Of a stretch of 64,000 nt of DNA, positions 7,675 to 59,621 are shown piece by piece. Both the position numbers and the translations under genes were made by a program. The DNA is taken from positions 620,001 through 684,000 of the forward strand of contig NZ_CP132333.1 of assembly GCF_030758935.1 (NCBI RefSeq), given 5' to 3'. The notes beneath the pieces were generated by a model that was not told the DNA's origin, did not search any database, and saw only the letters and a list, made by a program, of their open reading frames with translations. The stretch comes from Geothrix sp. PMB-07 (lineage in GTDB: Bacteria > Acidobacteriota > Holophagae > Holophagales > Holophagaceae). Each line of letters opens with the position of its first letter. Positions within the stretch are counted from its first letter, which is position 1.

Positions 7675-7695
7675 ATCCCCCTCCGGAGGTCCAAG

Positions 7696-8278: not shown

Positions 8279-8285
8279 GTTTTTC

Positions 8286-8390
8286 ATGAGCACTGTCCTG
8301 GCCTGGATCATCTCCCCCCTTTGGTTGCCCGTTCTGGGCGCCCTTCACCTGCGGGACGCCCAGAGGCGCCGCCGCTTCACCCGTCACTAG
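8286..8390 (+). CDS. Possible 34-aa membrane-spanning peptide
   Basis: A short frame begins MSTVLAWIISPLWLPVLGALHL and ends in an Arg-rich tail (RDAQRRRRFTRH). This is one hydrophobic segment followed by positive charge. It begins 7 bp after the preceding stop and ends 10 bp before the DUF3164 gene, filling the gap exactly. The ribosome site is weak. Composition fits a small phage membrane protein, but chance cannot be excluded. Confidence 0.35.
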   Translation: MSTVLAWIISPLWLPVLGALHLRDAQRRRRFTRH

Positions 8391-8400
8391 GAGCAAGAGC

Positions 8401-9018: not shown

Positions 9019-9020
9019 TC

Positions 9021-12291: not shown

Positions 12292-12299
12292 GGTGAATC

Positions 12300-13256: not shown

Positions 13257-13258
13257 CC

Positions 13259-15774: not shown

Positions 15775-18332
15775 TGCCGTGGCCAGTGATGTTCTTCCTC
15801 TGGGTCGCCTCCATGGTGGTGGGCGAGATGCTGCGCCCCAAGCCAAAGGTGGAGAACGCGAAGGCCGCTGGCACCGCCGACTTCGACTTCCCGACGGCCA
15901 CTGAGGATCGGCGGAAAGCGTTCGTATTCGGAACGGTCAAGCTGGACAGTCCCAATGTGACCTGGTGGGGGGACATCGCCAATCGCCCAATCAGGCAGAA
16001 GGCCGGTAAGGGCGGCTTCATGGGTACGGGAAGCACGTTATGGCAAACGGTAGGCTATCGCTACTACGTGGGGATGAAGCTTAGCCTTTGCCTTGGGCCT
16101 GTGGAGCTGCTTGAGCTGCAGGCGGACGGCAAGACCTTCTGGACTGGCGTGAGCACTGGTGGACTGATCCATGTCAGTTCGGAAGGGCTATTCGGTGGAG
16201 AGACTGGCGGCGGTGGCTTGGCTGGAACCTTCAACTTCCTGCCCGGGACCATGTCTCAGCCCGTTGATGACTACCTTGTTGACGTGCTTGGGGCGCCCCT
16301 TCCTGCGTGGCGTGGTGTCGCTACGCTGGTGTGGCAGGGACCCAGCGCTGGTGGAGATAACGGCTACCTCGGGACCTCTCCTCGAATTCCGCCCATCAGC
16401 GCGGTTGTGCGTCGGCTCCCATCGAATCTCGGGTTTGGCTCATCGACGACGAATTTGAATGGCGATGCCAACGCCGCCGAGGTCATCTACGAGGTGCTGA
16501 CCTCGCAGGAATGTGGCATGGCGCAGCCAGTTGATCTCGTGGATATCCCTAGCTTCCAGGCAGCAGCGCAGCAGCTCGCGAGCGAAGGGTTTGGGATTAG
16601 TGGTATCTGGGAGAGCGGGGATGCACGCTCCTTCATTGAGGAAATCCTGCGGACCATTGACGGCTGCAACTTTTTAGACTTCTCAACAGGGAAATGGCGG
16701 ATCACGTTAGCCCGTGGCGGCTATAACGTCGCCACGCTTCCAGTGTTGGATGGCCATTCGTCCATCCAGGCGCTTGAGGGTTACAGCGAGGTCGCGCTGG
16801 ACGAATCAACCAACCAGGTTCAAGTGTCCTACACGAGCCGGGCATCTAATTTCTCAACCAAACAAGTCCAGGCGCAGGCCTTCGCGAATATCCGCTATCA
16901 AGATGCGGTGGTCAATGCGAGCCTGAGCTACCCGATGATTTCCAAGGCTAGCCTGGCTGCAAAGGTGGCGGATCGGGATCTCAGGGCCTACAGCACCCCA
17001 TTGGCCAAAGGTGATCTGATCTGCACCCGGGTCGCCCGCACTCTTAGGCCTGGCGACCTTTTTGTTCTGCGATGGGCCCCCCTGGGAATCGACCAGGTGG
17101 TCTGCCGCGTGTTGAAGATTTCCAGGGGTGACTTGCAGTCCTCTGGCATTCGGATCTCTTTCCTGAAGGATGTATTCAGCCTCGGGTCTGCCTTGTATGG
17201 CGCTCCGGCGTCATCTGGTTGGGTCGATCCCGGCGTTACGCCTCAACCCTGCGAGGCCCAGGCGCTGATGGAAGCGCCTTACTGGGCAGTGGGGGCATCT
17301 CGCCAGGTCTTCGCCATTGGATCGCGAGCCGACCAGGTCACTCTGGATGCAGAGATCTGGACCAATGAGGGTGCTGGGTATCTTCAGACGGGGAACCTGC
17401 CATCACTGACTCCGACCGGCTTACTCACGAGTGCATACGGATGCAAGACGGCCGCGCTTGATCCAGTTGGCTTCACCGTATCTGGTGGCTCCGACCTGGC
17501 CCAGTTGCCGGGGTTCAGCACCAATTCGGATGGTCGCGCCCGTGGCGCAAACCTAGCTTATTTCCCTGCGACTGGGGAGCTGGTGTCTTGGACCACGGCT
17601 GTAGCGAATGTTGACGGCAGTTTCACTGTGTCTGCGGTGCTTCGCGGCGTTATCGACACAGTCCCCTCAGACAACGCAGCGGGTGATCGCGTTTGGTTTT
17701 TCAGCGTCGGCGCCGCCGAGGTGCGTTCATCCGATGGCAGCGGCGGCGGTGGTGCTGTCGCAGGCCCATCAACACCTGGCATCAACGGACGCACCATCCT
17801 CTACGGGACCATCGACCCGACCTCAGATATCGGTTCGGATGGTGATAGCTACATCAACCTGACTTCTCATTTCATTTTCGGGCCAAAGGCAGGTGGGGCT
17901 TGGCCGGTCGGGACCTCTCTCGTTGGCCCGGCCGGAATGAATGGAACCAATGGCCGCCCCTCCCGAGCCTCAGCGAACTGGACGACCGGCGTGTTGGCCG
18001 CTGGGGCTGTCGAAACGCAGGACATCGACTTCGTTAAGACAGGAAAGCTCTACAAGCTCACAACCACACAGGCGGCGCGAGTCCGCCTGTATTCGACGGC
18101 TGCACGTCGCTCCACAGACGCTGCCCGGCCTTCAACCCAAAAGCTCACGGACCCTTCGGATTGTGAGCTGGATGTGGTCACTGACGCCGCCCACCTGTCC
18201 TTCGCATTGAAAGAAGCGACCTTCTCGAACCAGGATGACCCTGTCACCGGCAAGGCCTATTTGAGCGTCACGAACCTGGGCGCAAGCGCGGCGGTCGGCG
18301 TAACTGTTGTATTCACCGATTTGGAGTCTTGA
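15774..18332 (+). CDS. Phage tail hub / tip attachment protein J-like
   Basis: An 852-residue protein, the largest of the tail block. A hydrophobic N-terminus (WPVMFFLWVASMVVGEMLRP) leads into the start common to tail-hub proteins of D3112-like phages (RRKAFVFGTVKLDSPNVTWWGD...). A central hub-like region (VIYEVLTSQECGM...DARSFIEEILRTIDGCNF) is followed by C-terminal beta-rich domains, with a Gly-rich hinge at about 660-668. It corresponds in place and size to lambda J / TipJ, which caps the tail and contacts the receptor apparatus. Confidence 0.75.
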   Translation: MPWPVMFFLWVASMVVGEMLRPKPKVENAKAAGTADFDFPTATEDRRKAFVFGTVKLDSPNVTWWGDIANRPIRQKAGKGGFMGTGSTLWQTVGYRYYVGMKLSLCLGPVELLELQADGKTFWTGVSTGGLIHVSSEGLFGGETGGGGLAGTFNFLPGTMSQPVDDYLVDVLGAPLPAWRGVATLVWQGPSAGGDNGYLGTSPRIPPISAVVRRLPSNLGFGSSTTNLNGDANAAEVIYEVLTSQECGMAQPVDLVDIPSFQAAAQQLASEGFGISGIWESGDARSFIEEILRTIDGCNFLDFSTGKWRITLARGGYNVATLPVLDGHSSIQALEGYSEVALDESTNQVQVSYTSRASNFSTKQVQAQAFANIRYQDAVVNASLSYPMISKASLAAKVADRDLRAYSTPLAKGDLICTRVARTLRPGDLFVLRWAPLGIDQVVCRVLKISRGDLQSSGIRISFLKDVFSLGSALYGAPASSGWVDPGVTPQPCEAQALMEAPYWAVGASRQVFAIGSRADQVTLDAEIWTNEGAGYLQTGNLPSLTPTGLLTSAYGCKTAALDPVGFTVSGGSDLAQLPGFSTNSDGRARGANLAYFPATGELVSWTTAVANVDGSFTVSAVLRGVIDTVPSDNAAGDRVWFFSVGAAEVRSSDGSGGGGAVAGPSTPGINGRTILYGTIDPTSDIGSDGDSYINLTSHFIFGPKAGGAWPVGTSLVGPAGMNGTNGRPSRASANWTTGVLAAGAVETQDIDFVKTGKLYKLTTTQAARVRLYSTAARRSTDAARPSTQKLTDPSDCELDVVTDAAHLSFALKEATFSNQDDPVTGKAYLSVTNLGASAAVGVTVVFTDLES

Positions 18333-39303: not shown

Positions 39304-40294
39304 TCAGAGTCTGAGCGGAGACAGGGCCATCCACAGGCTCACGATGAGGGTGAACATCAGGGCCAAAGCCATCACCACAATGGCCAACCGGGCGCGTAGG
39401 CGGGGCAGGGCCTGGCTCAGGCTTGCCCGCTGCTGGAAGAAGGAGAGGGCGCCCAGGCCGAACGCTGAAATGGCGCTGCCCAGGAGGGCAGCGTAGAGGG
39501 GGTAACCCACGAACCCGTACTCTGCATGAAGCAGGCAGAACGGGCAGTGGTGGGTGGGCAGGGCGTAGATGTAGAGGCCGAAGAAGGCGATCAGTGCGGC
39601 GATGGCCACGGGAAAGAACCCCAGGCCCAGGCACGCGAGCAGGCGACCGCCTTGGCGGTATTTGAGGAAGGCCACGCTGCTGATCACCAGGGCACCGAAG
39701 CAGGTCCAGAACGCGGGCTGCACCACCTGGGGCGAAAGGCTTGCGAGGTCGGAGGCGAGGCCCGGGCGGCCCTGGCCGAAGAGGCTGCCACAGCAGGAGG
39801 TCATCACATCGGCATGCAGGCCGGTCAGGTAGCGGCCCTGCAGCCAGGCCTCCCCCAGCACCAGGGGGAGGAGCAGCATCAGCAGCGCGTATTTGGGGCG
39901 GATGAGGGGATAGTCATGGCCCTGGGTATCGGCCCGGTGGAGGATCAGCCAGAGCCCCGCCACCAGGCAGGTGGCCACCTTGGCGAGCAGGGCGGGGTAG
40001 CCGTAGGCGTTGACGGAGAGGGAGCCCGCGGCGCACATGGCGCCTACGAACTGGGTGTGCAGGCCATCCACGGTGTAGATGAAGAGGAAGAGCGAAAGCA
40101 CCTGGATCGCCAGGGCGTTGGCCACCAGGGTGGACACCAGGTAGGTGCGCCGTTCCAACTCCAGCTGAGCCTCGCTGCCGCTGCGCAGATCCCAATGGCG
40201 GAGGATGCGCAGGCCCAGCCCGCTGGCAGCCAACAGGAACGCGCTGACAATGCCCGAGGCCAGCAGCAGGGCGAGGATGCCGGGGTGCTGGATC
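39304..40294 (-). CDS. Polytopic membrane protein with CPFC motif, last gene of NosL-ABC operon
   Basis: About 330 residues from the GTG overlapping the ATPase stop (GTGA; the start base is within 2 bp of the end given). Eight or so hydrophobic segments. The notable residues are T-S-C-C-G (near 185) and H-H-C-P-F-C-x-x-H near 255, a thioredoxin-like C-x-x-C flanked by His within a membrane segment edge. This suggests thiol-disulfide or copper chemistry at the outer face. I do not recognise a named family. Position with NosL and an ABC transporter suggests a role in metal delivery or cofactor maturation. Confidence 0.65.
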
Positions 40295-41012
40295 ACGGCG
40301 CGGAGACCACCCGGCCATCCCGCATCTCCACCACGGCATCGGCCAGGGGGGAGTCATACACGATGGGGTCGTGGCTGGTGATGAGCAGGGTTCTTCCGGT
40401 GGCCCTGAACTGGCCCATGAGGGCCATGAAATCCTCGGAGAGTTTGGAATCCAGGTGGGCGGTGGGCTCGTCGGCGATGAGCACGGCTGGCTCGTTGATG
40501 AGGGCTCGGGCGATGGCGACGCGCTGAGCCTCGCCACCGGAGAGGCGGTCCACGGGCATCCGCAGGTGCCGTGTCAGGCCCAGGGCCTCCAGCTGCGCGA
40601 CGGCACGGGCCTCGGCGGAGCGGCGGTCTTCGCCCGTGGGGTAGGTGGGAAGCAGGACGTTTTCCAGCACGCTGATGCCGCGCACCAGGTTGAACTGCTG
40701 GAAGATGAAGCCGAATGTGCGCCGCCGGATGGCCGTGAGGAAACGTTCGGGCAGGCTGGTGATCTCCAGGGCATCGCCTTCGCGCAGTTGCGGCAGGGTG
40801 TTTGGAGGCAGGCCATGCAGGTGAATGCGGCCCGAAGTAGGCCTGGCCATGCACCCGATGAGGGTGAGCAAGGTGGTTTTGCCGGAGCCGCTGGGGCCCT
40901 TCAGCACCGTGAGCTGGCCATCGGGAATGCGGAGGCTCACACCATCCACCGCTGTAAAGGGGGTGGCCAATCCGGCCTGGTAGGTTTTCACGACCTGGGC
41001 GAGTTCGATCAT
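40293..41012 (-). CDS. ABC transporter ATP-binding protein (LolD/MacB type)
   Basis: The ATG overlaps the permease stop (TGATG), 239 residues. Walker A GPSGSGKT (about 42-49), Q-loop FQQFNLV, signature LSGGEAQR, Walker B AVLIADEPT and switch His in TSHD are intact. The sequence type is that of ATPases serving FtsX/MacB-like permeases. Next to NosL, the pair recalls the NosF-NosY/NosDFY maturation transporter. Likely uses ATP hydrolysis to drive a periplasmic event rather than bulk transport. Confidence 0.88.
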   Translation of the reverse strand: MIELAQVVKTYQAGLATPFTAVDGVSLRIPDGQLTVLKGPSGSGKTTLLTLIGCMARPTSGRIHLHGLPPNTLPQLREGDALEITSLPERFLTAIRRRTFGFIFQQFNLVRGISVLENVLLPTYPTGEDRRSAEARAVAQLEALGLTRHLRMPVDRLSGGEAQRVAIARALINEPAVLIADEPTAHLDSKLSEDFMALMGQFRATGRTLLITSHDPIVYDSPLADAVVEMRDGRVVSAP

Positions 41013-42136
41013 CAGGACCTCATCGCCGCATCGGGATCCACCGTGGCCGCACGCCAGCTGGGCACCAGGGTGGCCGCCGTGTAGGGAAGCACCGTCAGAA
41101 AGAACAGAACCGTGAGCTGGTAGGCGTCCACGGCGGGCGCCAGGCGGTAGGTGGGGAAGAGCACAGACCAGCCCTTGAGGGCATGCTCGAACAGGGTGGC
41201 TGAAAAGAAGAAGACGTGGACATAGGCCAGCACCACGCCGCCCAGAAAGGCCGTGAGCGACACCACCGCGCCTTCCATGAACTTGAGCAGCAGCACGTCG
41301 CCGCTTTCCCAGCCGATGGATTTCAGGATGCCGATCTCCTTGCGCTCTTCGGCAGAAAGGCCCGTGGCGCGATCCCAGGCGAATATCACAAAGGAGAGGA
41401 TGGCCGAGGCCAGCACCACCACCATGAGGCCGCCCCGCCACTCGAAGATGGCCTCGTAGGTGCGGAGGATCTCGGATTTCAGGATGGGCCGCGCATCGGG
41501 GAACTGCTCCACGATCTTGGCGGCGATGGTGGGCAGCTCGCGGGGATTGCCTGCGCGGACGGCCAGGTCCGTGGCGAGGCCCTCCGGGAAGCGGAAGAGG
41601 GCGCGGACATCGGCCGGGGACATGAGGATGAGATCGGAGGACACCAATTCCGAGGAGGCCGGCAGCACCTTCTGGACGGTGAACAGGGTGGGCAGCCCAC
41701 CGTAGCCCCGAAGGGTAATCATGTCCCCCTCGTTCACCCGCATGCTGCGTGCCACGCCCTGGCCGATCCACACCGAGTCGGGAGCCAGGTCTGGCTCCGA
41801 ACTGCCCATGAGGGTGAGGTTTCCCCCAAAGACCGGATCGTAGTAGTAGCCCCAGACCCGGGCCTGGACATCTTCCACGCCACGGATGGCGCGGATGGCC
41901 TCGGCTTGCGAGAGGGGAAGCGGATCATGACGTCCCGCCACCATGCGCTGCACCACCATGTCCGGCGCCTGGACCAGGAGTTCGCGGGCCTCTCGCTTCA
42001 GGGCCTGCACGAAGAAGATGAGGGAGGCGATGACGAAGATGACCAGCGTATAGACGCCGAGCAGGGCCAGGTTGCGCCCCTTGCGCCTCAGCAGCGAGGA
42101 GAGGGCGAAATCAAGGATGTTGCGGGCGCGGCGCAT
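41012..42136 (-). CDS. ABC transporter permease (FtsX/MacB-type)
   Basis: 374 residues: one N-terminal TM (NLALLGVYTLVIFVIASLIFFV), a large periplasmic domain (residues 45-255, MacB-PCD-like) and three C-terminal TMs (VVVLASAILSFVIFAW, VVSLTAFLGGVVLAYVHVFF, LTVLFFLTVLPYTAATLVPSW). The motif ERKEIGILKSIGWESGDVLLLKFMEGAVVS is the FtsX coupling region. It starts 26 bp inside the preceding small gene, so translation is coupled. Confidence 0.87.
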   Translation of the reverse strand: MRRARNILDFALSSLLRRKGRNLALLGVYTLVIFVIASLIFFVQALKREARELLVQAPDMVVQRMVAGRHDPLPLSQAEAIRAIRGVEDVQARVWGYYYDPVFGGNLTLMGSSEPDLAPDSVWIGQGVARSMRVNEGDMITLRGYGGLPTLFTVQKVLPASSELVSSDLILMSPADVRALFRFPEGLATDLAVRAGNPRELPTIAAKIVEQFPDARPILKSEILRTYEAIFEWRGGLMVVVLASAILSFVIFAWDRATGLSAEERKEIGILKSIGWESGDVLLLKFMEGAVVSLTAFLGGVVLAYVHVFFFSATLFEHALKGWSVLFPTYRLAPAVDAYQLTVLFFLTVLPYTAATLVPSWRAATVDPDAAMRS

Positions 42137-42425
42137 GGGGGCTCGGGAAGGGGGGCGGGGTCACCAGGGATCCCGAGGGAAAGTGGTCCAGGCCCATGGG
42201 ATGATCCTGGAAGGCCGCGTGGCGATCCGCCATGGCGGGATGCCGGGTGTAGCGGGCCTCGGTGAACAGGCACAGGTCCGTGAGGCCCAGCCGACGCACC
42301 AGCTCAAGGCTGGCCTGGCGCTGCCGGCGGGCGGCATTCTCCTGGCCGTTGGCATGCAGGAGCATGGCCACAAACAGCACCGACAGGGCGCCAGTCAAGG
42401 AGAGGAAGGCCGAGGATTTCCTCAA
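42111..42425 (-). CDS. Small single-TM protein of the NosL-ABC operon
   Basis: 104 residues from TTG 42425, preceded by GAGGG 7 bp upstream. One N-terminal hydrophobic anchor (AFLSLTGALSVLFVAMLLHA) and a soluble tail with conserved-looking LTDLCLFTEARYTRHPAMADRHAAFQDHP, rich in His, Cys and Asp. The tail could bind a metal in the periplasm. It lies between nosL and the permease and overlaps the latter. Family not recognised. Confidence 0.55.
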   Translation of the reverse strand: MRKSSAFLSLTGALSVLFVAMLLHANGQENAARRQRQASLELVRRLGLTDLCLFTEARYTRHPAMADRHAAFQDHPMGLDHFPSGSLVTPPPFPSPHAPRPQHP

Positions 42426-42435
42426 GGAGGAACCC

Positions 42436-42918
42436 TCACTCCAGGCTTTTCAATGCGGCCTGCGTGACATCCGGGAAGCTGAGGATCCTCTGGCCCTTGT
42501 GGTCCTTGAGGAAGGCCTTGGCTTCGGCTTCGGTGGCGAAGGGCACGAGCTCCTGGCCCATGGGGCCCAGGATGTCGCTTCGGAGCACGAAGAAGGCCTT
42601 CCGCGCGTCGATGTGCTTGAGGGCGTAGTAGTCCTTCACGAGGATGGCATCGATGTCGGCGCCACTGCGTTTCTTGGCGTAGCGCTTCAGGTCCAGCAGG
42701 TAGTGGAAGAGATCCTTGGGCCCGTCGAACCAGGCCTGGGCGCCATCCTTGAAGACCACGGCCGCGGCCCAATCGGGGAAATTGGCCACATACATGCCGC
42801 AGACCGCGCAGTTGCCCTTGGGTGGCAGCGGCTTGCTGTCGGCCCAGCCGGGGGCGGCCAGGGCGAAGGCGAGGCCGAGGGTGCAGAGCCTCCTCAGCAC
42901 GGGAGCACCGGTGAGCAA
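42436..42918 (-). CDS. NosL-like copper-binding protein
   Basis: 160 residues from TTG 42918; GTG 42900 (VLRRLCTLG...) is an alternative start. A signal peptide (LCTLGLAFALAAPGWAD) is followed by the NosL signature GNCAVCGMYVANFPDWAAAVVFKDG, in which C-x-x-C-G-M provides the Cu(I) ligands, then FFVLRSDILGPMGQELVPF. In denitrifiers NosL is the copper chaperone for nitrous-oxide reductase. No nosZ lies in the window, so here it probably feeds another copper or metalloprotein. First gene of the leftward operon and divergent from the SCO copper chaperone. Confidence 0.85.
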   Translation of the reverse strand: MLTGAPVLRRLCTLGLAFALAAPGWADSKPLPPKGNCAVCGMYVANFPDWAAAVVFKDGAQAWFDGPKDLFHYLLDLKRYAKKRSGADIDAILVKDYYALKHIDARKAFFVLRSDILGPMGQELVPFATEAEAKAFLKDHKGQRILSFPDVTQAALKSLE

Positions 42919-43148: not shown

Positions 43149-43727
43149 ATGCACCGAGCCACATTGAACCTTGCCGCCCTGGTCCTCAGTGTGTGGGCCG
43201 TCATGCCCAGCACCCTCTCCGCCCAGGCGCCCGCGCCCCTCGTGCGAACCCTGGAAGCCTACACGGTGCCGGATCTGCTCCTGGTGAACCAGGATGGGGC
43301 GAAGGTGAAGCTGAAGCCCCTCCTGGAATCCGGCGAACCCGTCATCCTCGATTTCATCTTCGGCACCTGCACCACCATCTGCCCGGTCCTTTCCGCGGGC
43401 TACGCCAACCTGCAGGCGAAACTCCCCCCGAACAGCCCCAAGATCCACTTGATCTCCATCTCCATTGATCCGGAGAACGACACGCCCAAGGTGATGCGCG
43501 ACTACCTGAAGCGCTACCGGGCCAAGCCAGGCTGGGATTTCCTCACGGGGCGGCGCGAGGACATCGACAAGGCCATGATCGCCTTCAATGCGTACATCCC
43601 GAACAAGATGGCCCACTATCCCCTCACCCTGATCCGCGACCCCAAAACCGGGAAGTGGGTGCGCCTCTTCGGCATGATGAGCTCCTCCGAGTTCATGGCG
43701 GAGTGCCGGAAGGTGGGGATCCTGTGA
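43149..43727 (+). CDS. SCO1/SenC-family copper chaperone
   Basis: 192 residues with AGGAGGG 8 bp upstream. A signal peptide (MHRATLNLAALVLSVWAVMPSTLSAQA) is followed by a thioredoxin-like fold with C74-T-T-I-C78-P and a distal His (KMAHYPLTL, about 163), the three Cu ligands of SCO proteins. SCO delivers copper to CuA of cytochrome oxidase or acts as thiol reductase. Here its stop overlaps the start of a cytochrome c gene, indicating service to this local electron-transfer set. Confidence 0.87.
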   Translation: MHRATLNLAALVLSVWAVMPSTLSAQAPAPLVRTLEAYTVPDLLLVNQDGAKVKLKPLLESGEPVILDFIFGTCTTICPVLSAGYANLQAKLPPNSPKIHLISISIDPENDTPKVMRDYLKRYRAKPGWDFLTGRREDIDKAMIAFNAYIPNKMAHYPLTLIRDPKTGKWVRLFGMMSSSEFMAECRKVGIL

Positions 43728-45430
43728 GGGCCCCCGGAAGGCTCCTGTCGCGCGCCGTCGCTCTGGCGCTCCTCCTCGGCACTTGTATCGCACTGGGCGC
43801 AGCGCCCGCCGACAAGGTGCCACAGATGGTGGCCGGACTGCCCGCGGAGCAGGCACGGCTCCTGGGCGAGCGCATGTACCGCCAGGGGCTCCTGCCCTCG
43901 GGCGAGCCCATGCAGGCCGTGGTCAGCAATGACATCGCCATTGCGGGCACCGCCTTTACCTGCGTGAGCTGCCACATGCGCAGCGGGCTGGGCTCCTTCG
44001 AGGGCGGCATTGTCACCCTGCCCACCAACGGGGCGAAGCTGGCGCAGCCCCGCTACTGGAAATTCCCCAACCTCTCGCTCGCAGAGCGGAAGGATCTGCG
44101 ATTGCAGACTCCCGAAGCCCGGCCCGCCTACACCGATGAGGCCCTGGCCCATGCCCTGCGCACGGGCATCGATCCCACGGGCCGCGAACTGCACGCCATC
44201 ATGCCGCGTTACCAGCTTGAAGATCGGGACATGGCCATCCTGATCCACTACCTGCGTTCGCTGTCGGCCGAGTTCTCGCCAGGGATCGATGCCACCACGA
44301 TCCGCTTCGCCACTGTGGTCACCGAGGAGGTGAGCCCAGAGGATCAGGAGGCCATGCTCCGGCCCATGACCAACTACGTGGCCCGCCACAATCAGTATCC
44401 CAAGGGCTTTGGCAACCGGATGTATTTGGGGGTAGGTGGCAACGAGATGAGCGGCGGCTACCGCAAACTGGCCCTGTCCGTTTGGCGGTTGACGGGAAAG
44501 TCCGGGACCTGGCGGCAGCAGCTGGAGCGCCATCTGGCGGAGGAACCAGTCTTCGCGCTGATCGGAGGCATCTCGTACGGAGACTGGAAGCCCATCCACG
44601 ATTTCTGCGAGGCCCAGAAGCTCCCCTGCCTCCTGCCCATCACGGATTTCCCCGTCATTTCCGAAACGGACAGCTACACCCAGTACTTCTCCAAGGGCTA
44701 CTACCAGGAGGGGCAGGCGGCGGCCCGCTACCTGCGGGGGATGGAGCCCGCCCCGACTTCGGCGAAGATCCTCCAGGTCATCCAGGAGGGCCCCGAGGGC
44801 CGGGATCTCTCTGCAGGCTTTCGCGAAACCTGGCGGGAGTTGGGCCAGGAGGAGGTGAAGGAGATCCGCCTGGGGAAGGGCGAGTCCCTCGGCTCCGAGG
44901 CGCTGCAGGCGATCCTCCAGCGGGAACGCCCCGCCATCCTGCTGGTGTGGACGGGGGCCGACAGCTTCTTGGCCCTGCGCGACCTGGCCAACCAGCCCAC
45001 GCATCCGGAAGCCGTCTTCATGTCGAGCCGCTTTCTGCGCACCCGCCTGAAGGACCTTCCCGAAGCGGCGCGTTCCTTCACCTGGCTCACCTACCCCTAC
45101 CGGGATCCCAAGGATGAGCCGGATGTCTCGAAGTACGCGGACTCTCTGCTGGCAGGCATGACCCAGCGCAACCCGGAGCCCCGGATCTACACGCGGGTCT
45201 ACTCGATGATTCAGATCCTGCGTCAGGGCCTCATGGACATGGACCGGAACTTCTACCGGGACAATTTCATGGATCGGATTGGCATGCAGGCCGATCAGAC
45301 TCTGCCGGATTTCCTCCGCCTGAGTTTCGGTCCAGGCCAGCGCTACGCTTCCAAAGGCTGTTACATCATGCAGCTGGGGCCGGGCCCCCAGCCCCAATTG
45401 CTGCGCAAAAGCGATTGGGTGCTGCACTGA
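43724..45430 (+). CDS. Cytochrome c fused to a type-1 periplasmic-binding-protein domain
   Basis: 568 residues from GTG 43724, which overlaps the SCO stop. Signal peptide to about residue 27. A mono-heme c domain follows: C80-V-S-C83-H84 then MRSGLG, with probable axial Met in HAIMPRYQL (about 165) and the helix pattern of class I cytochromes. From about 200 the protein switches to a Leu/Ile/Val-binding-like bilobed domain (IRFATVVTEE..., NRMYLGVGGNEMSGGYRKL..., EPVFALIGGISYGDWKPIHDFCEAQKLPCLLPITDFP, ILLVWTGADSFLALRDLA). No transporter genes accompany it. This may couple ligand binding to electron transfer or sensing. Confidence 0.78.
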   Translation: MRAPGRLLSRAVALALLLGTCIALGAAPADKVPQMVAGLPAEQARLLGERMYRQGLLPSGEPMQAVVSNDIAIAGTAFTCVSCHMRSGLGSFEGGIVTLPTNGAKLAQPRYWKFPNLSLAERKDLRLQTPEARPAYTDEALAHALRTGIDPTGRELHAIMPRYQLEDRDMAILIHYLRSLSAEFSPGIDATTIRFATVVTEEVSPEDQEAMLRPMTNYVARHNQYPKGFGNRMYLGVGGNEMSGGYRKLALSVWRLTGKSGTWRQQLERHLAEEPVFALIGGISYGDWKPIHDFCEAQKLPCLLPITDFPVISETDSYTQYFSKGYYQEGQAAARYLRGMEPAPTSAKILQVIQEGPEGRDLSAGFRETWRELGQEEVKEIRLGKGESLGSEALQAILQRERPAILLVWTGADSFLALRDLANQPTHPEAVFMSSRFLRTRLKDLPEAARSFTWLTYPYRDPKDEPDVSKYADSLLAGMTQRNPEPRIYTRVYSMIQILRQGLMDMDRNFYRDNFMDRIGMQADQTLPDFLRLSFGPGQRYASKGCYIMQLGPGPQPQLLRKSDWVLH

Positions 45431-45496
45431 GGGGATGGAGTGAACGCGTATGATCAAGGCTTCCCATCGTCGTCCCCTTTCGGATATGAGGTCGTC

Positions 45497-47116
45497 ATGC
45501 GCGTGATCGGCAGCTGGATAACTTGGCTGTTCCTGGGCTTGGCGCTGCTCCATGTGGGGTGTAAGGACCCGGCGCAGGCGCCCACGGGACTGAGCTACAG
45601 CGCGTACCCGGCTGTCTATCTGGTGAACGTGGCCATTACCGAAAACAAACCCACGACGGGGGGCGGGGCACCCACGGGCTATTCGGTGAGCCCAGCCTTG
45701 CCCGCGGGATTGAACCTCGATGCCAGCACAGGGGTGATTTCCGGAACCCCGACCACCGCCGCAGCCCAGGCCACCTACACCGTGACGGCCACCAACGGCG
45801 GTGGCAGTGCCACGGTGGCCCTCAGCATCACCGTGGGCAGCGGCACCCTCAGCATCACCACGCAACCCGCCAGCCAGACCGTGCTGGAAGGGCAGACAGC
45901 CACTTTCAGCGTGGTGGCCGCTGGAACCGGCACCCTCACGTATCAGTGGGAAAGGGATGGTGTGGCCATCACCGGAGCCACCTCGGCCTCCTACACCACG
46001 CCTGCCACGGTTCTTGCCGACAGCGGCGCCGCGTTCCGTGTGAGCGTGACGGATGCAACGAACACCGTCGTGAAAAGCGACCCCGCCACCTTGACCGTGA
46101 CGGGGGCCGCGGGCTCGGGCACCACCGTCAGCACGGGCAGCATGGCCACGCCGCGGGCCTATCACACTGCCACCCTTCTCAAGAATGGCCAGGTGCTGGT
46201 CGTGGGCGGCAGCGATGGCAGCCTCGCACTGGCCAGCGCAGAGCTCTACGACCCCGCCACGGGCGCCTTCACGGCCACGGGCAGCCTCGTCACCGCGCGG
46301 CAGCAGCACAGCGCCACCTTGCTGGCCGATGGAAAGGTGCTCATCGCCGGTGGGGTGAACCTGGGCGCCACCCTGGCCTCAGCGGAAGTGTACGATCCCG
46401 CCGCGGGCACCTTCACGGCCACCGGGAATCTGGCCGCTGCCCGTTCCGATCACAGCGCCACCTTGCTGGCGAGCGGCAAGGTGCTGATGGTCTCTGGGCG
46501 CGACCTTGGCACCTATGTGGCCACCGCGGAGGTGTACGATCCGGCGGCGGGCACCTTCAGTGCCACCACCTCTGCCCCTCTGGCCACGCGGGCCACCCAC
46601 ACGGCCACCCTCCTGGGCAACGGCAAGGTTCTTGTCGCGGGTGGATTCCGAGCGAGCGCCCTGTCGACGTCAGAGCTCTACGACCCCGCCACAGGAGCCT
46701 TCACTGCGGCGGCAAGCATGTCCGCGGCCCGCTCGTACCACTCGGCAACCCTGTTGCCCAACGGTCAGGTTCTGATGGCCGGTGGCTCGGCCAGTGTGCA
46801 GGCGGAACTCTACAATCCGGCCACCGGCACGTTCACGGCCTCGGGGAGCTTGGCCGCGGCCCGGAGCTTCTGGCACACGGCGACCCTGCTCGCCACGGGG
46901 AAGGTTTTGGTGTTCGGTGGCCGAGGTACCGGCACACCGGCCCCCATCCTGGCCTCCGGAGAGCTGTTCGACCCCGCCACTGGGCTCTTCTCGGCCACAG
47001 GCAGCCTGGGCACGGCGCGGGAGCTGCACACCTCCATCGCGCTTCCCAATGGCAAGGTGCTGGTGGTGGGCGGGGTCGGGTTCGGCTACTTGGCGAGCGC
47101 CGAGCTCTACTACTGA
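45497..47116 (+). CDS. Secreted Ig-like / seven-Kelch-repeat lipoprotein
   Basis: Start set at ATG 45497 because it begins a lipoprotein-like leader (SWITWLFLGLALLHVGC); upstream in-frame GTG 45440 adds no signal. 539 residues: a putative-Ig (He-PIG) domain (PAVYLVNVAITENKPTTGGG..., to 130), an Ig-like domain with TITTQPASQTVLEGQTATFSV (135-220) and seven Kelch units of about 45-50 residues built on HSATLL-x-x-GKVL-x-x-GG...AE-x-YDPA-x-G-x-F. Seven units would close a complete propeller. The non-canonical -3 residue (His) makes lipidation uncertain. Probably extracytoplasmic binding; 66 bp after the cytochrome gene. Confidence 0.78.
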   Translation: MRVIGSWITWLFLGLALLHVGCKDPAQAPTGLSYSAYPAVYLVNVAITENKPTTGGGAPTGYSVSPALPAGLNLDASTGVISGTPTTAAAQATYTVTATNGGGSATVALSITVGSGTLSITTQPASQTVLEGQTATFSVVAAGTGTLTYQWERDGVAITGATSASYTTPATVLADSGAAFRVSVTDATNTVVKSDPATLTVTGAAGSGTTVSTGSMATPRAYHTATLLKNGQVLVVGGSDGSLALASAELYDPATGAFTATGSLVTARQQHSATLLADGKVLIAGGVNLGATLASAEVYDPAAGTFTATGNLAAARSDHSATLLASGKVLMVSGRDLGTYVATAEVYDPAAGTFSATTSAPLATRATHTATLLGNGKVLVAGGFRASALSTSELYDPATGAFTAAASMSAARSYHSATLLPNGQVLMAGGSASVQAELYNPATGTFTASGSLAAARSFWHTATLLATGKVLVFGGRGTGTPAPILASGELFDPATGLFSATGSLGTARELHTSIALPNGKVLVVGGVGFGYLASAELYY

Positions 47117-47378: not shown

Positions 47379-50300
47379 ATGATGAAGCGTCTCAACCGCC
47401 TGCTGGCGCTGGGAGCCGCGTTGTTCGCGGGTCTCACGATGCAGGCTCAGATGCCGGACGGCGCCAATCGCACCGCGCCTCCCGAGGCCGGTGGCGACAA
47501 GAACGCCATCGTGGAACGGGCCACCCGCCGCCGCACGTTGGCGCAAGCCCGTGAGGCCGCTGCCGCCCGCACCAAGGTCGCGCTCCAGAACAAGGGCGGC
47601 CAGGTGGATGTCAAGACGCTCGGAGTCAATCCCATGGCCAAGGCCATGGTGAGTCAGGCCACGAAGGTGGCTGCCAAGGTCGCCGCCGCCAAGGGGGAAT
47701 CCGCCTCTGCCCTGATTGTTCCGGGCCCTGGTTTCCAGCTGGCTCAGCCGGACTACATGTTCGGCACCGCCAGCAACTGGCACAACACAAAGCCGATCCG
47801 GAAATTCGTGGACACGCTGGCGGGCCTCGGGCCTGAGAACGCCAACAATCTGGGGAACTACATCCCCGTGGCCACCCCCAAGGCCAACCCCTTCGACACC
47901 ACCTCCGACTACTACGAAATCGGCGTGGTGGAATACAAGCAGCAGCTCCACTCGGAACTGGCCCCCACCAAGCTGCGCGGCTACCAGGATCTGAACGCTG
48001 CCACACCCGTGAACGCCAAGAACGGGCAGAACACCAACTACCTCGGCCCCGTCATCATCGCGAAGCGCGATCGCGCCGTCCGCGTGAAGATGGTGAACAT
48101 GCTGCCCACTGGCGCGGCAGGCGATCTCTTCCTGCCGGTGGATACCACCATGATGGGCGCCGGTGTGGGCCCCAATGGCGGGCTGTTCACCCAGAACCGC
48201 GCCGAGCTGCACCTCCACGGCGGCCTGAGCCCCTGGATCAGCGACGGCACGCCCCATCAGTGGGTGACGCCCGCCCACGACACCCTGGCCGATGGCGTCA
48301 CGCCCATTCCCTATCCCAAGGGCGCGGTCTTCCAGAACGTGCCAGACATGGCCACCGGGGCCAACAGCCGCGATGGTGTGGGCACCTACTACTGGACCAA
48401 CCAGCAGAGCGGCCGGTTCATGTTCTACCACGACCACTCCTTCGGGCTCACCCGCCTGAACGTGTATGCCGGTGAGGCTGCGGGCTACCTGATCGTGGAC
48501 CCCGTCGAGGAGCGGCTCATCAATGCCGGCCTGCTGCCCAACAACCTCGGCTTCTCCAATGGCCCGAACTACTACAACTACGGCATCCCCCTCGTCATCC
48601 AGGACAAGACCTTCGTCGACACCACCACCCTTGGCACTGTCGGTGTCGCAGGTGGCACCGATCCCACGTGGGATGTGAACAAATACGGTGGCGACGGCAG
48701 CCTCTGGTACCCGCATGTCTACATGACGAACCAGAATCCCGCCGACATCTCCGGCGCCAATGCCATGGGACGCTGGGACTACGGCGCATGGTTCTGGCCT
48801 CCGCTGCCCCTGGCCGTCAACAACAACGGCGTGGGCCTGCAGCATGGCGCGGAGCCGGTTCCCAACGATCCCAACGGCACCGAGATTCCCGGAACGCCCA
48901 ACCCCTCCCTGGTGCCCGAAGCTTTCATGGACACCCCCGTGGTCAACGGCGTGGCCTACCCTTCGGTCACCGTCGAGCCCAAGGCCTACCGCTTCCGCAT
49001 CCTGAACGCCTCCAACGACCGCTTCTGGAACCTCTCCATCTTCCAGGCCGATGCGCCTGGTGGAACGGAGGTGCCCATGGTGCCTTCGGCTCCCAATACC
49101 GCCTGGCCCGCCACCTGGCCCACGGACGGCCGTGACGGAGGCGTGCCTGACCCCGCCGCAGCCGGTCCTTCCTTCATCCAGATCGGCAACGAGAGCGGCT
49201 TCCTGCCTTCGCCTGTGGTGATCGCGCCCCAGCCCATCGGCTACAACTACAACCGCCGCGATATCGTCGTGCTCAATGTGCAGGACAAGGCCCTCTTCCT
49301 CGGCCCCGCGGAACGCGCCGATGTGATCGTCGACTTCTCGGCCTACGCCGGCAAGACCCTCATCCTCTACAACGATGGCCCCGCTCCGGTGCCGGCCTTC
49401 GATTCCCGCCTCGACTACTACACGGGCGATCCCGACCAGACCGACAGTGGCGGCGCTGCCACCACCCAGCCTGGCTACGGCCCGAACATCCGCACCATCA
49501 TGCAGATCAACGTGGCCGCCAGCGCTCCGGCGCCTGCCTTTGACCTCGCGGCTCTCAGCGCGGCCTTCGTGGGAACGGATGCGGCCCCCAGCGTCTTCGC
49601 CGAATCCCAGCACCCCCCGATCGTTCCTCAGCTGAGCTACAACAGCGCCATGAACAAGGTGCTGACGCCTGCCGAGCAGAAGCTCTTCACGAACAACGTC
49701 TATGTCCGCATCCAGGACACCAAGATCCGCATGCCTTTCCCCGCCACGGAGAACGGCGTGCTGACGCAGCCCTCTCTGGCCCCCAAGGCCATCCAGGAGC
49801 TGTTTGAGCTTGACTACGGCCGCATGAACGCCACCCTGGGCGTGGAACTGCCCCTCACCAACTTCACCAATCAGACCACCATTCCTCTGGGCTATTCCGA
49901 TCCCGCCACCGAGAACCTGACGGACGGCACCACCCAGTACTGGAAGATCACCCACAACGGCGTGGACACGCACCCGGTCCACTTCCACCTGTTCGATGTC
50001 CAGGTGATCAACCGCGTGGGTTGGGACGGCGCCGTGCGCCTGCCCGATGCCAACGAGATCGGCTGGAAGGAAACCGTCAAGATGAACCCGCTGGAGGACA
50101 TCATCGTCGCCTTCCGGCCGCTCTCTCCCCGCCTGCCCTTCCACCTGCCCAACAGCCGCCGCCTGGGCGATGTCACCAAGGCCCGCCACGAGCCCATCTC
50201 CTGGACCAGCTCGACAGATGGCAACACCGTCACCGGCACCAACGAGTTGCAGAACTTCGGCTGGGAATACGTCTGGCACTGCCACATCCTCGGTCATGAA

Positions 50301-51866
50301 GAGAACGACTTCATGCGCCCCATGGTGCTGACGGTCGCCACGACCATCCCCAGGGCCGCCAGTGCCCTCAAGGCCACCCTTTCACCCACGCTGGCCACCC
50401 GTGCGGACCTGGTGTGGCAGGACAATTCCACGGACGAAACGGGCTTCGCCATTCAGCGCCGCACGCCCGGCGGATCCTTCACGACCATCGCCACCGTTGT
50501 CCCCAACGTGCATACCTTCACCGATTTCAACGTCACTCCTGGCGTGCGCACCGATTACCGGATCGTGGCCTACAACCAGGCCGGTGAAGCGGCTCCCACC
50601 GCTGTCTCCAGCGTGAACATCACCTCGGTCCAGGTTTCGGGAACCATCAGCGGCGTCCCCGCGGGTGTCACCGTCACCCTGGCGGCCAGCACGGGGCAGA
50701 CGGCCACCGCCGCCGCCGACGGCACCTATGCCATCGACCTGCCCTATCCTTTCACGGGCACCCTGACGCCCTCGGCGAATGGGCTGATCTTCACGCCCGC
50801 TTCCCGCACCTTCAACGCGCTTTCCACCGACCAGGCCGGCCAGAACTTCGCCGCCCAGGTTGCCATCACCGGCCTCGTGACCTTCAACGGCAACCCGCTG
50901 CCGGGCGTGACCCTGAACTACCCCGGTGGCCGCACCACCACGGGCACTGATGGCCGCTACACCCTGGCCTTCACCCCCGGCTGGTCGGGCACCATCACGC
51001 CCTCCCGCAATGGCTACACCTTCACGCCTCCCTCGACGGCCTATGCCGCCATCACGGCCAGCACGGTGACCAACTACACCGCGATCTCCAACGCGATCAT
51101 TTCCGGCCGGGTCTACATCGCCTCCAACCCTGTCCAGCCCCTGAACGGCATTGTCATCAGCTTCAGCAATGGCGGCGGCACGGCTCTGACGGACAGCACC
51201 GGACAATACTCCCAGACCGTGCCTGCGGGCTGGTCGGGAACGGCCACTGCAACAGCCCCCGGGTATCTCTTCACCCCTGCTTCCCGTACGTTCTTCGGTG
51301 TCACCACTCCGCAGACGGCCCGCGATTTCGTGGCCACCATCGGCGTCATCGTCACGGGCAAGGTCTCCAATTTCGCGGCCTTGACCTCGGGCGGCCTGGT
51401 CCAGCCGGTATCCATCCGCTTCGGCAACCTCGGTTCGGTGCTCACCTCCACCTTGGATGGTTCCTACAGCTTTACGGTCAATTCGGGCTGGACGGGCACC
51501 ATCACGCCCAGCCTCAATGGCCACACCTTCACGGCCCAGTTCGTCGCTGCACCTGGCATCACCGCGGCGAACAATCCGGCCCGGGATTTCACAGCCTTCC
51601 AGACCATTTCTGGACGGACGCGCCGGACCAACGGCACCAGCGTGAACGGCGTCCAGGTCAGCCTCCTGAACGCGGGCACTCCGGCCACCACCTATGCCAC
51701 GGTGACCACGTCCGGTGCCGGTGACTTCTCCTTCCAGGTGCCTGCGGGCTGGTCGGGCAGCCTCACGGCTTCCGGCATCCTGAACACCTGGACCCTGGTC
51801 ACGGGCAGCAGCACCTTTAACCTGATCAACGCGGATGCCACCGGCCTGAGGTTCAACGGCCAGTAA
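47379..51866 (+). CDS. Very large multicopper oxidase with FN3 and five C-terminal regulatory-like repeats
   Basis: 1495 residues; ATG preceded by GAGGTG. Signal peptide (MKRLNRLLALGAALFAGLTMQAQ). All four multicopper oxidase copper motifs are present: HLHGG (about 278), FYHDHSFG (about 350), HPVHFHLF (about 865) and WHCHILGHEENDFM (about 966-980). This supports a full T1-T2/T3 site set across a long oxidase (to about 1000). Then come one fibronectin III domain (1005-1085) and five repeats of about 80 residues with GWSGTxTPSxxGxxFTP. Size and design recall OmpB of Geobacter and MofA-type Mn oxidases. Likely secreted metal/iron redox role; substrate not provable here. Confidence 0.88.
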   Translation: MMKRLNRLLALGAALFAGLTMQAQMPDGANRTAPPEAGGDKNAIVERATRRRTLAQAREAAAARTKVALQNKGGQVDVKTLGVNPMAKAMVSQATKVAAKVAAAKGESASALIVPGPGFQLAQPDYMFGTASNWHNTKPIRKFVDTLAGLGPENANNLGNYIPVATPKANPFDTTSDYYEIGVVEYKQQLHSELAPTKLRGYQDLNAATPVNAKNGQNTNYLGPVIIAKRDRAVRVKMVNMLPTGAAGDLFLPVDTTMMGAGVGPNGGLFTQNRAELHLHGGLSPWISDGTPHQWVTPAHDTLADGVTPIPYPKGAVFQNVPDMATGANSRDGVGTYYWTNQQSGRFMFYHDHSFGLTRLNVYAGEAAGYLIVDPVEERLINAGLLPNNLGFSNGPNYYNYGIPLVIQDKTFVDTTTLGTVGVAGGTDPTWDVNKYGGDGSLWYPHVYMTNQNPADISGANAMGRWDYGAWFWPPLPLAVNNNGVGLQHGAEPVPNDPNGTEIPGTPNPSLVPEAFMDTPVVNGVAYPSVTVEPKAYRFRILNASNDRFWNLSIFQADAPGGTEVPMVPSAPNTAWPATWPTDGRDGGVPDPAAAGPSFIQIGNESGFLPSPVVIAPQPIGYNYNRRDIVVLNVQDKALFLGPAERADVIVDFSAYAGKTLILYNDGPAPVPAFDSRLDYYTGDPDQTDSGGAATTQPGYGPNIRTIMQINVAASAPAPAFDLAALSAAFVGTDAAPSVFAESQHPPIVPQLSYNSAMNKVLTPAEQKLFTNNVYVRIQDTKIRMPFPATENGVLTQPSLAPKAIQELFELDYGRMNATLGVELPLTNFTNQTTIPLGYSDPATENLTDGTTQYWKITHNGVDTHPVHFHLFDVQVINRVGWDGAVRLPDANEIGWKETVKMNPLEDIIVAFRPLSPRLPFHLPNSRRLGDVTKARHEPISWTSSTDGNTVTGTNELQNFGWEYVWHCHILGHEENDFMRPMVLTVATTIPRAASALKATLSPTLATRADLVWQDNSTDETGFAIQRRTPGGSFTTIATVVPNVHTFTDFNVTPGVRTDYRIVAYNQAGEAAPTAVSSVNITSVQVSGTISGVPAGVTVTLAASTGQTATAAADGTYAIDLPYPFTGTLTPSANGLIFTPASRTFNALSTDQAGQNFAAQVAITGLVTFNGNPLPGVTLNYPGGRTTTGTDGRYTLAFTPGWSGTITPSRNGYTFTPPSTAYAAITASTVTNYTAISNAIISGRVYIASNPVQPLNGIVISFSNGGGTALTDSTGQYSQTVPAGWSGTATATAPGYLFTPASRTFFGVTTPQTARDFVATIGVIVTGKVSNFAALTSGGLVQPVSIRFGNLGSVLTSTLDGSYSFTVNSGWTGTITPSLNGHTFTAQFVAAPGITAANNPARDFTAFQTISGRTRRTNGTSVNGVQVSLLNAGTPATTYATVTTSGAGDFSFQVPAGWSGSLTASGILNTWTLVTGSSTFNLINADATGLRFNGQ

Positions 51867-52031: not shown

Positions 52032-52694
52032 ATGGCATCGGAACGCAGGCACAGGCTCGTCATCGCCGATGACCACACCATTCTTCGGGAAGGACTCAAG
52101 GCGCTCATGGGCGCGAGGCCTGATCTGGAAGTGGTCGGCGAGGCCACCGATGGCCGCGAGGCTGTCCGCTGCGCCGAGGAGTTGAAGCCCGACCTGATGA
52201 TGCTTGACCTCTCAATGCCCCGCTCCAATGGGCTGGAGGCTTTGAAGGAAATCAAGCGGGTGAGCCCGGGCACCAAGGTGCTGGTGCTCACGGTGCACAA
52301 GACCGAGGACTACGTCTTCACGGCCCTGCAAGCCGGCGCTGATGGCTACGTGCTGAAGGATTCTTCGGCTTCGGAACTGACCCTCGCCGTGCGAAGCGTG
52401 CTCAACGGTGAGCGCTACCTTGCCCCGGCCATCGCCAGCACCGTGGTCATGGGGTACCTGGGGGCAAAGGACCCAACGGCCATGCGGCCCAGTTTCGATG
52501 AATTGACCACCCGGGAGCGGGAGGTTTTGAAACTCATCGCCGAGGGCTACCGCACCAAGGACATCGCCGAGTACCTCTGCATCAGCCCGAAGACCGTGGA
52601 GAAGCACCGGGCAAACCTCATGGACCGGCTCAACCTGAGGACGGTCTCCTCCCTGACCACCTACGCCATCGAAAAGGGCCTGGTCACGAAGTAG
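52032..52694 (+). CDS. NarL/LuxR-type response regulator
   Basis: 220 residues. Receiver domain with acidic pair DD13-14, phospho-acceptor D59 (LMMLDLSMP), T/S in VLTVHK and Lys in LKDSS. The C-terminal LuxR-type HTH has TTREREVLKLIAEGYRTKDIAEYLCISPKTVEKHRANLMDRL (about 157-200). The start ATG follows GGGGGTGG. It is transcribed after the multicopper oxidase terminator, so it has its own promoter. The partner kinase gene is convergent and overlaps its 3' end by 11 bp. NarL-type regulators bind inverted heptamers, and such sites occur nearby. Confidence 0.92.
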   Translation: MASERRHRLVIADDHTILREGLKALMGARPDLEVVGEATDGREAVRCAEELKPDLMMLDLSMPRSNGLEALKEIKRVSPGTKVLVLTVHKTEDYVFTALQAGADGYVLKDSSASELTLAVRSVLNGERYLAPAIASTVVMGYLGAKDPTAMRPSFDELTTREREVLKLIAEGYRTKDIAEYLCISPKTVEKHRANLMDRLNLRTVSSLTTYAIEKGLVTK

Positions 52695-54501
52695 CGTCTT
52701 CGTCCACGGGCCATCGGGCCATGATCATTGTTCCCTGGCCTGGAGTCGAGGTGACGATCATGGAGCCGCCAAAGAGTTCCGCCCGCTCCCGCATGGAGGC
52801 CAAGCCGTAGCCGCTACCCGAGTGGCTGCGCTTCACATTCTTGGGATCGAAGCCAATGCCGTCATCGGCGATGACCACCTGCAGCTCGCCCATGACCAGC
52901 CGAAGGCCCACGGTGATGCGTGTGCCCTGACTGTATTTGGCGGAATTGTTCATGGCCTCTTGGATGATGCGGAAGACGCTGGTGCGGAGCTCGTCAGGCA
53001 CCTCGAATTCCTCGATGTCCACCACGCGCTCGACCTCGAAGTGGGGATAGGTGTTCTGGAATTCGCGGGTGAACCAGGCGATGGTGGCAAGCAAACCGAG
53101 GTCATCCAGGGTTGATGGCCGCAGGGCCATGGAAATGCGCCGAACCTCTTCCACGGAATTCTGGAGGATGGGCACCACGGCCCGGAGGGACTTGCCCTGC
53201 TGCTCGCTGCCCTCCTCGTCGAGGGCTCGCTCCACGATGAACTTGGCCGCGCTGAGGGATTGTCCCAGGCTGTCGTGGAGCTCGCGCGCGACACGCTGCC
53301 GCTCACCTTCCTGGGCGGACATCAGGCGTGCGGAAACGCGTTGCAAAGTCTCACGGGATTCCCGGAGCGCCGCCTCGGCGAGGTGCTTTTCCGTGATGTC
53401 CTGGATGTTCCCCAGAAGCGAGGGAGCGCCGCCGTACTGGATCAAGGTGGTGCGCCCGCTGATCCAGCGCACCTCCCCCTGGGGGGTCAGCATGCGGCAT
53501 TCATAGTCCTGAGCCGTACCCTTTCCGGCCAGACGAAGCCGCCACAGTTCCTGAACCGCAGGCCAATCATCCGGGTGGATGAGCGAGGTGACTTCCAGGC
53601 GCGCCAGGTCGAAGGGGCTGCTGCCGATCATCTGGAAGAAGCGCTGGTTGCCAAAGACCAATCGGCCTTCACGGTAGATGAAGATGCCCGTGGGGGAGCT
53701 TTCGACCACGGTGCTGTACTTCTCCTCCGATTCGCGGATGGCGGCCTCGGTCTGCTTGCGGGCGGAAATATCGATGAAGGTGTAGACGAACCCTGCTATC
53801 GAATCATCGTTGCGGCGGATGGTGGAGGCGGTGAGGAAGGCGGGAAACCGCGTTCCATCGCGGCGGACGGCCCGCACTTCCCCCGACCACCCCTTGGCAG
53901 CCACGGGCCCGGACAGCCCGTAGGCGGCGGATTCCACCGAAAACCCTGTGGCCATGGCGAGCGTCTGGTTCTGCACCTCCTGTTCCGTCCATCCGAAGAG
54001 CAGTTCCGCGAACTGGTTCCAGTAGAGAATCACCCCTCCCTTCCCCGTGGCGATGACGGCCTGCTGCACCACGGCCAGCAGACCCGCCTGGAACTGGATG
54101 CGGGAGTCGGCCTTGGTTCGCTCGGCGAGTTCGGCCTCCGTCCGCACCTTGGCATCGTATTTCAGGAACTCGTTGGTGGCTTCCATCTCCTTCAAGTGCC
54201 GTTCCGTTTCGGCCTTGGTGACGAGGTGGCGCACCATGGGTTTGACGAGCAGATAGTACAGGCAGGGAAAACAGACCAGGATGAGGGTTCCCGAATCCAC
54301 GAAGGCCATGACGAGTTGGTTCTCCCCGAACAGCGGCTCGAGGGTCACCATGATGGTCAGTTCCGTTCCCGTGATGATCGCCGCGACGATCAGAAGGGAG
54401 CGGATCAAGGCGCGGGAGTTGGGATCCAGGCTGCTTGGTGCCGCGGGGTGACCGCCGGTGGAGGGCGCGGGAAGCGGTGCGGAAGGAGGGGCGGCAGACA
54501 C
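52684..54501 (-). CDS. PAS-containing NarX-type sensor histidine kinase (HisKA_3)
   Basis: 605 residues: Pro/Ala/Ser-rich N-terminus, two TM helices (LLIVAAIITGTELTIMVTL and MAFVDSGTLILVCFPCLYYLLV), a short coiled linker, two PAS domains (about 125-245 and 255-375, each with PAC-like ends), a HisKA_3 dimerisation helix with phospho-His in ARELHDSLGQSLS, and an HATPase domain (NNSAKYSQGT, VVIADDGIGFD, GYGLASMRERAELFGG). The LHDSLGQ box and single HTH-type partner mark it as the NarL-family kinase for the regulator encoded tail to tail with it. The PAS domains may sense redox or heme-linked signals. Confidence 0.92.
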   Translation of the reverse strand: MSAAPPSAPLPAPSTGGHPAAPSSLDPNSRALIRSLLIVAAIITGTELTIMVTLEPLFGENQLVMAFVDSGTLILVCFPCLYYLLVKPMVRHLVTKAETERHLKEMEATNEFLKYDAKVRTEAELAERTKADSRIQFQAGLLAVVQQAVIATGKGGVILYWNQFAELLFGWTEQEVQNQTLAMATGFSVESAAYGLSGPVAAKGWSGEVRAVRRDGTRFPAFLTASTIRRNDDSIAGFVYTFIDISARKQTEAAIRESEEKYSTVVESSPTGIFIYREGRLVFGNQRFFQMIGSSPFDLARLEVTSLIHPDDWPAVQELWRLRLAGKGTAQDYECRMLTPQGEVRWISGRTTLIQYGGAPSLLGNIQDITEKHLAEAALRESRETLQRVSARLMSAQEGERQRVARELHDSLGQSLSAAKFIVERALDEEGSEQQGKSLRAVVPILQNSVEEVRRISMALRPSTLDDLGLLATIAWFTREFQNTYPHFEVERVVDIEEFEVPDELRTSVFRIIQEAMNNSAKYSQGTRITVGLRLVMGELQVVIADDGIGFDPKNVKRSHSGSGYGLASMRERAELFGGSMIVTSTPGQGTMIMARWPVDEDATS

Positions 54502-58223: not shown

Positions 58224-59621
<1,398 letters not shown>

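Follow-up and report, generated by a model that had tools for sequence, protein, structure and literature searches.

Genes at the fusion locus

The gene under study (43724..45430, plus strand) lies in a 64,000-nucleotide stretch of the Geothrix sp. PMB-07 genome, the whole of which is called the window here, and encodes a MofC-like fusion protein of 568 amino acids in which a mono-heme cytochrome c is joined to a type-1 periplasmic-binding domain. It is a single open frame of 568 codons that runs from a GTG at 43724 to the stop at 45430 with zero internal stops, and it occurs as a single copy in the genome (4.24 Mb, one contig). An artifact, in which a frameshift or an assembly error had fused two genes, has a negligible probability and was ruled out, because dozens of independent genomes from several phyla keep the same open architecture and because the whole protein was modeled confidently by AlphaFold2 (pLDDT, 89.5; pTM, 0.87). 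An open frame of 897 codons opposite the fusion gene (43616-46309, minus strand) is no gene but a shadow frame in GC-rich coding DNA, and a scan for promoters and terminators gave nothing above chance expectation.

Upstream lies a gene for an SCO1/SenC copper chaperone of 192 amino acids with a CxxxC motif (GTCTTICP) (43149..43727, plus strand; Pfam SCO1-SenC, E value of 1.8e-19). Its stop codon (TGA, 43725-43727) overlaps the start codon of the fusion gene (GTG, 43724-43726) by 4 bp (GTGA); thus, the pair is probably translationally coupled, and the link to an SCO chaperone that the first-pass annotation had proposed was borne out. The second clear SCO gene of the genome adjoins COX1, so the one in the window is probably dedicated to this cluster, and it is less likely to serve cytochrome oxidase assembly in general. 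The genome holds three COX1-type oxidases, and therefore the organism encodes oxygen reduction.

The fusion gene is followed by a gene for an exported Kelch beta-propeller protein with Ig-like domains (45497..47116, plus strand; 539 amino acids, with an alternative upstream GTG at 45440; Pfam Kelch_4, E value of 1.4e-35) and by a gene for an OmpB/MofA-like multicopper oxidase (47379..51866, plus strand; 1,495 amino acids, with C-terminal repeats). The oxidase, which is predicted to be exported, matched Pfam Cu-oxidase_2 and contains all four copper motifs: HLHG (48210), YHDH (48426), HPVHFH (49971), and HCHILGHEENDFM (50277). Its fn3 match, with an E value of 0.015, fell under the curated cutoff; fibronectin type III is reported for OmpB. 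The oxidase of a Geobacterales locus (L095), where the gene order is likewise SCO, fusion, and oxidase, is 44% identical to that of the window over about 970 residues, and clustering of the fusion gene with a multicopper oxidase, as for MofC-like proteins, is kept across loci. The first-pass annotation had left this decisive neighbor unmentioned. Directly downstream of the oxidase, a LuxR-type response regulator (plus strand) and a PAS histidine kinase (minus strand) occupy 52107-54408 and are possible regulators of the cluster.

On the other side of the SCO gene, a divergent copper module is encoded on the minus strand. It begins with a NosL copper chaperone (42436..42918; Pfam NosL, E value of 5e-30), followed by a small open reading frame of at most 104 amino acids (42111..42425), an ABC permease of the FtsX/MacB type (41012..42136; Pfam FtsX and MacB_PCD), an ABC ATPase that starts at 41012 (40293..41012; Pfam ABC_tran, E value of 6.4e-29), and a 330-amino-acid protein that reads as hydrophobic and had no Pfam match (39304..40296). 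The small frame and the 330-amino-acid protein have relatives in two Geobacterales loci, L096 and L098, the latter protein at the same place. In L096, genes for NosL, a 96-amino-acid protein, FtsX, ABC, and a 333-amino-acid protein directly follow the fusion gene in the order of the window module, and the same run follows it in L098, where the ABC ATPase was not called.

The two domains of the fusion protein

The cytochrome c domain (residues 40-190; 43841..44293, plus strand) was delimited by invariant columns and by a domain model that matches class I type cytochromes c. As in MofC-like proteins, it is N terminal and carries a single c-type heme motif, CVSCH, at residues 80-84 (43961-43975, plus strand); the sequence MPRY (44201-44212, plus strand) contains the invariant pair Met160-Pro161, with Met160 as the probable distal heme ligand. 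C80, C83, H84, M160, and P161 are invariant among the aligned homologues and are what a His/Met cytochrome c requires. The invariance of the heme motif and of the distal Met indicates that selection maintains a working cytochrome. Pfam Cytochrom_C matched residues 79-181 slightly under its cutoff (E value of 9e-4; 20.9 versus 21.3 bits), and it was matched in 25 of 36 aligned homologues, with a best E value of 4.5e-9. When the cytochrome part was modeled alone (pLDDT, 80.9), only class I type cytochromes c appeared among the 50 matches listed in the structure comparison, at moderate Z scores of up to 7.4, and a Foldseek search with this isolated model gave no E value below 0.001.

The remainder of the protein (residues 189-568; 44288..45427, plus strand) is a type-1 periplasmic-binding domain of the LIVBP-like kind. 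Pfam Peripla_BP_6 matched residues 264-518 with an E value of 1.9e-14, which clears the curated cutoff, and was found in 33 of the 36 aligned homologues. Type-1 periplasmic-binding proteins were aligned to residues 189-568 by VIA-align with Z scores of 24 to 27 over 330 to 350 residues, LIVBP itself (2liv) with a Z score of 24.9 and an rmsd of 4.8 over 333 residues. A single-sequence search of the PDB with the fusion protein gave no direct match and an NCBIfam search found no family covering it, while a profile search returned type-1 binding proteins along with one cytochrome subunit of a fructose dehydrogenase. As the whole-protein model has a high pTM, the two domains may be held in a fixed arrangement. 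The first-pass description of one polypeptide joining a CVSCH mono-heme cytochrome to a binding-protein domain thus stood up to profile searches and structure prediction over all 568 residues: no frameshift was present, the heme residues were invariant, and the binding-protein fold was detected.

The domain has its type-1 fold in common with the LIVBP/HAAT amino acid binding proteins. In contrast to these, it is fused to a cytochrome, no LivHM permease was seen beside the fusion gene, and the ligand positions are apparently unconserved. In a weak profile alignment with LivK of Thermotoga maritima (3td9; approximately 13% identity), the positions that we take from LIVBP to be the ligand-binding Asp and Glu fell on a Gly and on a variable position, which suggests a loss of the acidic residues with which amino acid receptors contact their ligand, as far as so weak an alignment allows. 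If the protein were an ABC importer's solute receptor with an added cytochrome, this would account for the Peripla_BP_6 homology and for the ABC ATPase and FtsX permease encoded divergently nearby. However, FtsX/MacB-type permeases are not known as importers of the LivHM class, the conserved neighbors are copper proteins, and no LivHM or other LIV-type permease was found among the window neighbors that were read and scanned (39-55 kb) or recognized in the loci of relatives that were inspected, which makes an importer receptor very improbable. The earlier statement that no ABC permease lies nearby therefore holds for the LivHM type but not for the FtsX/MacB type, whose permease and ATPase genes span 40293-42136 and whose counterparts directly follow the fusion gene in two relatives.

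We also considered a protein that senses a ligand or regulates electron flow in response to it, the cytochrome being altered when a small molecule occupies the binding domain. The binding fold is intact and confidently modeled, and domains that are fixed relative to each other, as the pTM suggests, would suit such a protein. However, the fusion contains no signaling domain and has no known ligand, and the Gly and the variable position at the Asp and Glu sites, weak as that alignment is, speak against an amino acid ligand of the canonical kind. We regard a sensor as quite unlikely. The first-pass annotation had offered an electron carrier or a sensor as possibilities; the carrier agrees with the conserved gene context, whereas the sensor gained no positive support, having neither a signaling domain nor a LivHM-type permease beside it.

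Distribution and gene context of the family

A strong homologue of the fusion was present in 24 of the 93 genomes of the class. Homologues were also found in Desulfuromonadales, Geobacteraceae, and Nitrospirota metagenome-assembled genomes (MAGs), in 63 of 141 genomes from the order to which one Geobacteraceae MAG belongs, and at 25 to 27% in a phylum-wide sample. A plasmid search added homologues at 31 to 32% on Cupriavidus and Paraburkholderia (Burkholderiales) replicons, one of which has two Cu-oxidase proteins close by. In the Paraburkholderia locus (L061:2508-13927), two Cu-oxidase proteins, LolA-like proteins, and a cadherin-like protein of 2,723 amino acids are encoded upstream of the fusion gene, and type II secretion genes flank it on the opposite side; this is possibly a secreted copper-enzyme system.

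The neighbor survey showed that copper proteins (SCO, oxidase, and NosL) recur beside the fusion gene, and the order SCO-fusion-Kelch-oxidase recurs across the genus. Geobacterales have the order SCO-fusion-oxidase, to which an FKBP isomerase is often added. Within 8.5 kb of the fusion gene, a multicopper oxidase was found in 39 of 60 loci, SCO in 40, a Kelch propeller (beside the fusion) in 19, and an FKBP isomerase in 12, mostly in Geobacterales. When only the 44 loci flanked by 4 kb or more in both directions were counted by tblastn, the oxidase was present in 31, SCO in 30, and at least one of SCO, oxidase, and NosL in 40; in the remaining 4, gene calling and Pfam revealed FtsX/ABC genes with or without NosL (L105, L106, and L109) or a Cu-oxidase (L097). 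An SCO chaperone is a frequent but not universal trait of MofC-like clusters, and the window has one. No mofB-like FKBP isomerase was found within 8.5 kb of the fusion gene in the window; we did not treat this gene as defining, because the Geobacter sulfurreducens cluster described in PMC5566968 also is without one.

Fusion and oxidase co-occurred among the 93 genomes of the class: strong matches to both were found in 22, to the fusion only in 2, to the oxidase only in 2, and to neither in 67 (Fisher P value of 6e-17, which ignores shared ancestry). In the two genomes with the fusion only, a different multicopper oxidase of approximately 680 to 735 amino acids adjoins it, and the two with the oxidase only are 80% and 88% complete.

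Not all loci combine the fusion gene with an oxidase. Only copper-chaperone genes accompany it in L096, L098, L105, L106, L109, L019, L030, and L031, and several Geobacterales loci pair it with NosL, FtsX, and ABC genes and no adjacent oxidase. Six Geobacterales genomes in which the fusion has NosL or another Cu-oxidase as its context all carry an oxidase segment of 56 to 63% identity, either elsewhere in the genome or at a greater distance. In a tree built from 55 fusion proteins, four changes are needed to explain the NosL context, which is mixed among the oxidase contexts; therefore, the partners exchange. According to the survey, a NosL-FtsX-ABC copper module is associated with the family both in the group of the window and in Geobacterales, a link of which we found no description in the literature searched. 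In two loci, a family of approximately 210 amino acids (L105:7709-8335 and L109:9865-10506) lies directly between the fusion and the FtsX/ABC genes, its tested L105 member having no Pfam match, and a YtkA-like protein of approximately 140 amino acids is encoded upstream.

Relatives and proposed role

The combination of a mono-heme cytochrome c and a periplasmic binding domain was already published as MofC-like by He et al. (PMC5566968), where a role in electron transfer is hypothesized for MofC. The first-pass remark that no function had been assigned to the architecture was therefore correct insofar as the published role is hypothetical, but the architecture itself had been described. The same two parts make up MofC of Leptothrix discophora and GSU1397 of G. 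sulfurreducens, to which we liken the window protein by architecture and gene order as given in their descriptions. In G. sulfurreducens, ompB is GSU1394, the MofC homologue is GSU1397, and SCO is GSU1398 (PMC5566968), and the Geobacterales locus L095 (SCO, fusion, two small genes, and oxidase) matches the numbering GSU1398-1397-1396/1395-1394. In the ompB/mofA clusters, as in that of the window, a fusion-type gene is accompanied by genes for a multicopper oxidase and for an SCO chaperone. The mof operons of L. discophora and Rubrivivax contain mofA, mofB (an isomerase), and mofC, with its cytochrome c domain (PMC8218464), whereas the window cluster is without a MofB-type FKBP isomerase and has the Kelch propeller and the NosL-FtsX-ABC module instead.

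A further likeness, by annotation, is to the mnxG operon of Pseudomonas putida GB-1, which includes an "amino acid/amide ABC transporter substrate-binding protein, cytochrome c domain" with two SCO genes and a beta-propeller beside it (PMC11409713). Both clusters thus have the same two annotated domains, a multicopper oxidase, a beta-propeller, and SCO, but their gene order differs. For the oxidation of Mn(II), bacteria depend on genes of cytochrome c maturation (PMC11409713; PMC3056050).

The fusion is a further member of the described MofC-like family that occurs beside secreted multicopper oxidases, which have been implicated in the chemistry of manganese and iron. We found no biochemistry of any member in the literature. 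We take XoxG/XoxJ and MxaG/MxaJ of methanol dehydrogenases to be comparable, in that a cytochrome c and a protein of periplasmic-binding fold serve one periplasmic redox enzyme and no transport; these presumably differ from the fusion in being separate polypeptides with a type-2 binding fold and a quinoprotein enzyme.

The reading that we favor, with a probability of about 0.55, is that the fusion serves the exported multicopper oxidase as a dedicated redox partner in the periplasm. It is based on the invariant heme motif and distal Met, the coupling to SCO, the oxidase context, and the co-occurrence of fusion and oxidase, as well as on the cytochrome/substrate-binding gene in the mnxG operon and the involvement of cytochrome c maturation in Mn oxidation (PMC11409713). 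SCO and the divergent NosL/FtsX-ABC module would supply copper to the oxidase, which would act after export on Mn, Fe, or another substrate. By carrying electrons, the fusion would connect the oxidase with the cytochrome pool of the periplasm; the flow could run from the oxidase to the pool in metal oxidizers and could be reversed in metal reducers such as Geobacter. Its binding domain may be a docking or gating module, not a transport receptor.

The main rival, because the fusion also adjoins NosL/FtsX-ABC modules, is a redox factor of copper maturation, a possibility to which we give a smaller but appreciable weight. The cytochrome would keep SCO, NosL, or copper reduced for loading of the multicopper oxidase, and the binding domain would hold a copper complex or the apo-enzyme. 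The SCO gene directly upstream, overlapping the fusion gene, is consistent with this role, and loci with copper-chaperone genes but no adjacent oxidase, NosL-FtsX-ABC clusters among them, fit it as well as or better than they fit a redox partner. The placement of the NosL module (after the fusion in L096 and, with the ABC gene uncalled, L098; divergent in the window) and the intermingling of NosL and oxidase contexts on the tree also agree with it. Overall, the gene context supports a copper-loading factor nearly as well as it supports the redox partner. However, the oxidase-linked loci L029, L036, L050, L100, and L104 had neither SCO nor NosL within 8.5 kb by tblastn, and we know of no copper-loading pathway among those of Sco, PCuAC, TlpA, and NosL that requires a cytochrome of this kind.

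Additionally, and as a rather doubtful proposal, the fusion could be a general redox factor that activates exported multicopper oxidases and moves between oxidase and NosL-FtsX-ABC clusters, reducing copper or its chaperone while the binding domain grips a copper complex or the apo-oxidase. If true, this would also explain the cytochrome c maturation requirement in bacterial Mn(II) oxidation. A conserved fusion of a cytochrome and a binding protein beside multicopper oxidases is an obvious candidate for the cytochrome behind that dependence.

Elsewhere in the window, open reading frames that read as phage-like (4198-18332) form a probable prophage, close to which lie two tRNA genes (2125-2214 and 2298-2384). 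An SAH riboswitch (RF01057; 58078-58164, plus strand) lies just upstream of an open reading frame (58224-59621) that reads like an adenosylhomocysteinase.
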